Shown here: piece by piece, positions 58,551 through 59,153 of the stretch | Layout: every line of letters starts with the position of its first letter | Numbering within the stretch: position 1 is the first letter of the stretch | NCBI RefSeq assembly: GCF_008016455.1 | Contig: NZ_SAXU01000001.1 | Location: forward strand, 1,116,001 to 1,180,000 | Reading direction: 5' to 3' | From: Brachyspira aalborgi | GTDB taxonomy: Bacteria; Spirochaetota; Brachyspiria; Brachyspirales; Brachyspiraceae | Length of the DNA: 64,000 nucleotides | Notes under the pieces: generated by a model | What the model was told of the DNA's origin: nothing | Databases searched by the model: none | Seen by the model: only the letters and a program-made list of their open reading frames with translations | Program-made: the position numbers and the translations under genes

Positions 58551-59153
58551 TCACAATTTAAATATAGCGGTTGCAACTTCAAAAGCCGTATTCAAATCTA
58601 AAAGAAAAATCGTATCGTTATTAATATTTTGATTTTTAATCCATTCTTCCATATCATTCTTTGAACCAAAGAAATTCATAATATTTCAACAAGTGCTTGC
58701 CCAATTCTTATTCTTATTTAAATCTACATGAATAACATGAATATCGTTTGGGTAATGCTCAAATATTTTTCTATCTTTGATTTTAATATATATCTTATTT
58801 CCTGTATTACTACATATAGAATTAATTTCGACATCCTTATGAAACAAACTATAAGCTCCTAAAGCGTCTATAGCGCACATAGAATAAAATTTTCTTCCAT
58901 CGCTTAATTTTAATATATGATTAGTTTTCAAAGCGGATACGGGATACAAGAATGCAATATCGTCTCCGTTAGCAGTTATAATCTCTTTTTCTAATAACTC
59001 TTTATATAGAGATTCATTTCCGCAAATTTTTATGGCTTCATTTTTATTAATGGGAAGCCCCGCCTCAATTACAAAATCAATAAGCCTTAATCTCGCTTCT
59101 TGCATTTCTTTAGATATATTTTGATATTTATCGGATATTCCAAAATCAGACAT
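58551..59153 (-). CDS. saoL: MerB-like organometallic lyase, predicted selenoprotein (SaoL-like)
   Basis: 200 residues if the in-frame TGA at 58688-58686 is read as selenocysteine. The N-terminal 155 residues end NWASTC; the frame goes on NIMNFFGSKNDMEEW and ends VATAIFKL at 58551. Compared with MerB as I recall it: Cys93 and Asp96 (MCAID) match catalytic Cys96 and Asp99, Cys155 matches Cys159, and the TGA falls on Cys160 of the FCCHVHFF motif. The tail after the TGA (NFF, EEW, AFEVA) also matches MerB, so the frame is under selection past the TGA. MerB cleaves carbon-mercury bonds with thiols. AAGGAGT ribosome site; ten bases after saoD. If TGA is a true stop, it is a truncated gene. Confidence 0.75.
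58657..58673 (-). promoter_or_regulatory. bacterial SECIS-like hairpin in saoL
   Basis: Minus strand: TTCTTTG-GTT-CAAAGAA, a perfect seven-pair stem with a three-base loop starting with G. The loop begins 20 bases after the TGA (19 bases between). Known bacterial SECIS rules, as I recall them, ask for a loop of 3 to 14 bases, a G in its first two bases, and a distance of about 16 to 37 bases. Confidence 0.65.

Follow-up and report, generated by a model that had tools for sequence, protein, structure and literature searches.

A probable selenocysteine at the catalytic position of SaoL, a MerB-like lyase encoded in the SAO operon of Brachyspira aalborgi

The saoL gene and its internal TGA

We analysed a 64,000-nucleotide stretch of the Brachyspira aalborgi genome (RefSeq: GCF_008016455.1; contig NZ_SAXU01000001.1, positions 1,116,001 to 1,180,000), referred to here as the window, in which saoL, the last gene of a SAO operon (SAO, selenocysteine-assisted organometallic), contains an in-frame TGA. 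The reading frame lies on the minus strand and runs from an ATG at 59153 through this TGA at 58688-58686 to a terminal TGA at 58553-58551, and is otherwise open. An earlier interpretation of the letters alone (the sequence-only reading) had described the internal TGA as a predicted selenocysteine (Sec) codon within a continuous MerB-like frame, followed by residues that still match MerB; both descriptions of the frame proved correct. The gene and its elements are:

58551..59153, minus strand: saoL, predicted MerB-like organometallic lyase, 200 amino acids with the putative Sec156 (NCBIfam NF040728, 175.1 bits; Pfam MerB, 96.5 bits)
59160..59164, minus strand: AGGAG ribosome-binding site of saoL (from the sequence)
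58875..58877, minus strand: Cys93, aligned with catalytic Cys96 of MerB (alignment)
58866..58868, minus strand: Asp96, aligned with catalytic Asp99 of MerB (alignment)
58812..58814, minus strand: Cys114, aligned with Cys117 of MerB (alignment)
58689..58691, minus strand: Cys155, an additional thiol immediately preceding Sec, Phe158 in classical MerB (alignment; invariant in 41 SaoL sequences)
58686..58688, minus strand: predicted Sec codon UGA, residue 156, aligned with catalytic Cys159 of MerB (alignment; in-frame TGA kept in all full-length SaoL matches)
58657..58673, minus strand: SECIS-like hairpin (SECIS, selenocysteine insertion sequence), 7-base-pair stem, loop GUU, loop G at +20 from the UGA (geometry, conservation and covariation; a competing fold exists)

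The match to the SaoL model NF040728 exceeds its curated cut-off of 140 bits, and the Cys-Sec motif of the family (TGT/TGC-TGA) is present in the window gene. This model stops one residue short of the Sec (profile position 159 corresponds to residue 155) and therefore tests neither the catalytic Sec nor the tail. Truncated at the TGA, the protein scores 57.7 bits against Pfam MerB; read through, it scores 96.5 bits, and this gain of 39 bits identifies the 44-residue tail as genuine MerB sequence. Standard annotation would take the Sec codon for a stop and lose one catalytic residue. The terminal TGA (58553-58551) was also considered as a further Sec codon and rejected, as Brachyspira orthologues carry TAA there and reading on gains just three residues.

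Register of SaoL with MerB

SaoL was aligned with five MerB relatives and with the PDB sequences of MerB2 and of C160S MerB. C93, D96, C114 and U156 of SaoL correspond to C96, D99, C117 and C159 of MerB at a constant offset of three and without gaps, and each of the five MerB relatives has Cys in the U156 column, the outcome for which the sequence-only reading had proposed such an alignment. Cys96, Asp99 and Cys159 are the essential catalytic residues of MerB (PMC8261052; PMC4525700), with C93, D96 and U156 as their counterparts in SaoL. The ungapped register with C159 thus puts the predicted Sec at the catalytic position itself. Here the sequence-only reading erred: it had put the Sec next to the catalytic Cys, as the second member of the MerB Cys-Cys pair, whereas the residue added next to the catalytic position is Cys155, at Phe158 of classical MerB. 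With the register corrected, selenium would occupy the catalytic position that binds the metal instead of a neighbouring one.

An assignment of Sec to MerB Cys160 was rejected, because the spacing from C117 to C159 is 42 residues in both proteins and the alignments with C160S MerB (PDB: 3f2g) and MerB2 are ungapped. HMMER alignment with wild-type MerB (PDB: 1s6l) inserted a gap and paired CC with CC, a placement contradicted by the FF and W anchors.

An AlphaFold2 model of SaoL (predicted local distance difference test score, pLDDT, 87) has the MerB fold: its best Foldseek matches are all MerB crystal structures, with probability 1.00 and template modelling (TM) scores mostly of 0.63-0.71. SaoL resembles MerB (PF03243; PDB: 5c17, 3f0o) in this fold and in the ungapped positions of Cys96, Asp99, Cys117 and Cys159, but differs in the predicted Sec at Cys159, in Cys at Phe158 and Asn at Cys160, and in the lack of a MerA partner. 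Its scores also fall far short of the MerB equivalog cut-offs (64.9 and 57.7 bits against 193 and 200 bits), which makes it a homologue and not an orthologue of MerB. In MerB3 from an Enterococcus plasmid and in a Streptomyces alkylmercury lyase family protein, a Cys-Cys pair aligns with Cys155-Sec156 as its sulfur version; these proteins come from other organisms, lack Sec and are not SaoL. The corrected register yields a precise comparison, Sec versus Cys at residue 156 of a MerB-like lyase.

Conservation of the TGA and of the sequence beyond it

SaoL was detected in 11 of the 26 genomes of the genus, with the in-frame TGA in all 11. Within a sample of 296 Spirochaetota genomes it was confined to Brachyspira, one of 138 genera, and it recurs in scattered Clostridia, among them Tissierella, whose SaoL is 42% identical and also has an in-frame TGA. 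This distribution may reflect horizontal transfer. Every full-length SaoL match, from Brachyspira or Clostridia, contains exactly one in-frame TGA. Cys precedes the Sec codon in all 52 genes read out, the window gene included, and the motif C-U-N-[IVF]-M-[NK]-F-F is present in 51 of them, the exception being Brachyspira alvinipulli with a 10-base-pair duplication. This read-out was keyed on the TGA, leaving out loci L045 and L071, and is hence blind to Cys forms. No Cys form of SaoL was found among some fifty genomes, on the basis of the one internal TGA scored in every full-length match.

Within the genus, non-synonymous divergence (dN) from the window gene is 0.11-0.16 in the tail compared with 0.20-0.22 in the head, and changes are in excess at codon position 3. 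The lower dN of the tail indicates purifying selection on the sequence beyond the TGA. SaoL thus combines a UGA on a conserved Cys column with conserved sequence past it. The sequence-only reading had named orthologues in close relatives that end at the TGA, with a decayed tail, as evidence that would speak against Sec; instead, these relatives have kept both TGA and tail.

The SECIS-like hairpin

The hairpin downstream of the TGA (TTCTTTG / GTT / CAAAGAA, +13 to +29) has seven perfect pairs and a 3-nucleotide loop, with 19 bases between TGA and loop. Bacterial SECIS elements are hairpins with a G in the loop, located 16-37 nucleotides from the UGA, and the window hairpin fits this geometry as judged by the general rule. 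Across 41 distinct sequences, 90% of the cells are paired and three pairs show changes on both sides, two of these going from C-G to U-A. The 19 double-change cells compare with a shuffled mean of 9.8 and were reached in 0 of 500 shuffles, and covariation likewise exceeded all 500; the shuffles ignore relatedness among the 41 sequences. Sliding the partner by one column gave a covariation score slightly higher than that of the hairpin's own pairing. What carries weight is that the hairpin is conserved and covaries across these sequences and that the in-frame TGA is universally conserved.

Selenocysteine machinery and the favoured reading

Profile searches of the genome detected selA (458.9 bits), selB (293.8 bits) and selD (353.7 bits), each above its cut-off, and ARAGORN and Rfam identified a canonical tRNA-Sec gene (selC) with a UCA anticodon immediately upstream of selA and selB. 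The search for sel genes proposed in the sequence-only reading therefore returned the complete bacterial machinery, selA, selB, selC and selD. The genome also encodes two full-length selenoprotein-B reductases (TIGR01918; loci L086 and L087), each interrupted by a single in-frame TGA (residue context TSTUGTCTRCG) and matched across 431 of 431 positions. With complete sel genes and other selenoproteins in the same genome, UGA recoding is expected to work here.

The TGA at 58688-58686 is almost certainly read as selenocysteine. We favour, with a probability of about 0.93, the reading that saoL closes a Brachyspira SAO operon and that its UGA156 encodes a Sec in the active site of a MerB-fold lyase; every test proposed earlier that was run supports a Sec in this protein.

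Several observations weigh against it. In a 60-nucleotide ensemble of the window sequence, most stem pairs of the hairpin have a probability of about 0.17 because a rival fold is more stable, and the predicted optimum is thus a different structure; in addition, 26% of synonymous recodings of the saoL tail retain a SECIS-like stem of equal length. The seven-pair stem, the loop G and the 19-base distance of the sequence-only reading stand, but the hairpin is therefore weak evidence when the window sequence is taken singly. An Rfam search with the hairpin matched no curated family, which says little. Moreover, saoD, directly upstream of saoL, is frameshifted in the window genome, and saoL of B. 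alvinipulli carries the 10-base-pair tandem duplication 3' of the Sec codon; together these may mean that the SAO operon is dispensable or decaying in some lineages.

The family itself has been described before. An alkylmercury lyase MerB-like selenoprotein was already listed in a 2022 review (PMC9312934), and a 2026 review, citing Haft and Gwadz 2023, lists 'MerB-like organometallic lyase SaoL, NF040728, CU' as a selenoprotein and describes an SAO operon with six selenoprotein genes (PMC13188914). The core finding is thus known at family level, and the Brachyspira gene places a further example in a genus of gut spirochaetes. Relative to these listings, the present analysis would add the SaoL genes of Brachyspira, the precise alignment of the Sec with catalytic Cys159, and the lack of a Cys form in the sampled genomes. 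The window system resembles the described SaoL systems in its score above the curated cut-off, its operon partners and its Cys-Sec motif, but differs in that only SaoL appears in the Sec form, with SaoB, SaoC and SaoT as Cys forms and SaoD frameshifted.

Proposed activity and substrate

From these comparisons we infer Sec incorporation itself as well as the chemistry, substrate and metal hand-off that would follow it. With the ribosome at UGA codon 156, SelB with Sec-tRNA(Sec) would bind the downstream hairpin and insert Sec, and the read-through product would be a 200-residue MerB-fold enzyme in which Sec156 replaces MerB Cys159 and shares the active site with Cys93 and Asp96. The selenolate and Cys93 would most likely bind the metal of an organometal, and Asp96 would deliver the proton that cleaves the carbon-metal bond, a MerB-type protonolysis. 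The freed metal would then most likely be passed on to other SAO proteins, namely the SaoE permease together with SaoT, SaoD and SaoC.

There is reason not to presume organomercury as the substrate: SaoE is an ArsP_1-type permease, and no gene of the genome scored over the cut-off for MerA, the partner expected of a MerB, the best match being a dihydrolipoyl dehydrogenase. ArsP proteins are exporters of trivalent organoarsenicals. SaoL could thus be a Sec enzyme for organoarsenicals or another organometal, a proposal that competes with mercury as substrate and is compatible with Sec at residue 156. The permease type, the lack of a gene above the MerA cut-off and the SaoL score far below the MerB equivalog cut-offs all favour it. 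The catalytic residues of SaoL, however, correspond exactly to those of MerB, and the very high affinity of selenolates for Hg(II) is well established. SaoE, for its part, does not fix the metal, since it gives a second match, though one under the cut-off, to the SO_0444 Cu/Zn exporter model. On balance we regard a non-mercury substrate as a serious possibility, though not the more probable one. More tentatively still, SaoL might be an obligate selenoenzyme with Sec in place of Cys159 and the invariant extra Cys155, serving, in combination with an ArsP-type exporter but no MerA, the anaerobic detoxification of a non-mercury organometal, such as organoarsenicals in animal guts; we consider this fuller scenario unlikely.

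Other readings of the TGA

The UGA might instead be decoded without selenium, through a near-cognate tRNA or to give a different amino acid, and the competition between the hairpin and another fold in the window sequence would fit this. The complete sel genes with a canonical UCA-anticodon tRNA-Sec, the other selenoproteins of the genome, the Cys in the aligned column and the conserved hairpin geometry make such read-through very improbable. A plain nonsense mutation at the TGA, leaving saoL a pseudogene that gives a 155-residue fragment, draws some plausibility from the frameshift in the neighbouring saoD, but is rejected as scarcely credible given a TGA common to every full-length SaoL from two phyla and located on the catalytic Cys column, a tail under purifying selection, a complete Sec machinery and a fragment that would lack the third catalytic residue.

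The SAO operon around saoL

Profile matches revealed a nine-gene SAO operon with the transcription order saoT-E-C-X-B-P-A-D-L. The genes upstream of saoL in the window are:

59164..59498, minus strand: saoD (DsrE-related), split by a 2-base-pair insertion near 59397 (NF040732, 111.8 bits for the downstream piece, below the cut-off of 169; two tblastn frames; DNA comparison)
59555..60325, minus strand: saoA, ATP-binding cassette (ABC) transporter ATPase (NF040729, 375.9 bits)
60337..61152, minus strand: saoP, ABC permease (NF040733, 375.5 bits)
61104..61928, minus strand: saoB, substrate-binding protein, Cys-Cys form (NF040727, 297.5 bits)
61994..63199, minus strand: saoX, substrate-binding protein (NF040735, 487.4 bits)
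63269..63721, minus strand: saoC, C-terminus Cys-Cys-COOH, without Sec (NF040734, 159.3 bits; stop codon TAA)
63722..64000, minus strand: 3' part of saoE, ArsP_1-type permease (NF040736, 478.7 bits; Pfam ArsP_1)

The start of saoE and the whole of saoT (NF040730, 124 bits) lie past the window edge (locus L093). The NCBIfam names of the SaoT, SaoC and SaoB families allow a selenoprotein form; here all three are Cys forms, and SaoL is the only SAO protein with the Sec form.

In saoD, residues 1-34 and 35-110 are in different frames owing to the 2-base-pair insertion, which is seen against all Brachyspira relatives checked (GTGGTTGTGGAATGATG here against GTTGTTGGTATGATG) and is either a real mutation or an assembly error. 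The saoL duplication of B. alvinipulli (L037:8460-8490) brings a second copy of the Sec codon and a frameshift, and saoD of this species is likewise frameshifted, near its 3' end. A frameshift was also seen in saoA of a single-contig Brachyspira genome (L010, at the locus start), and saoD is not in the usual saoA-saoL interval in L007, L009 and L010. On the plus strand, opposite to saoL and past its 3' end, the window holds at 58225-58461 a 79-codon remnant that matches an NlpA-type lipoprotein in its C-terminal part alone (PF03180, profile positions 162-236) and looks from its sequence like a gene fragment.
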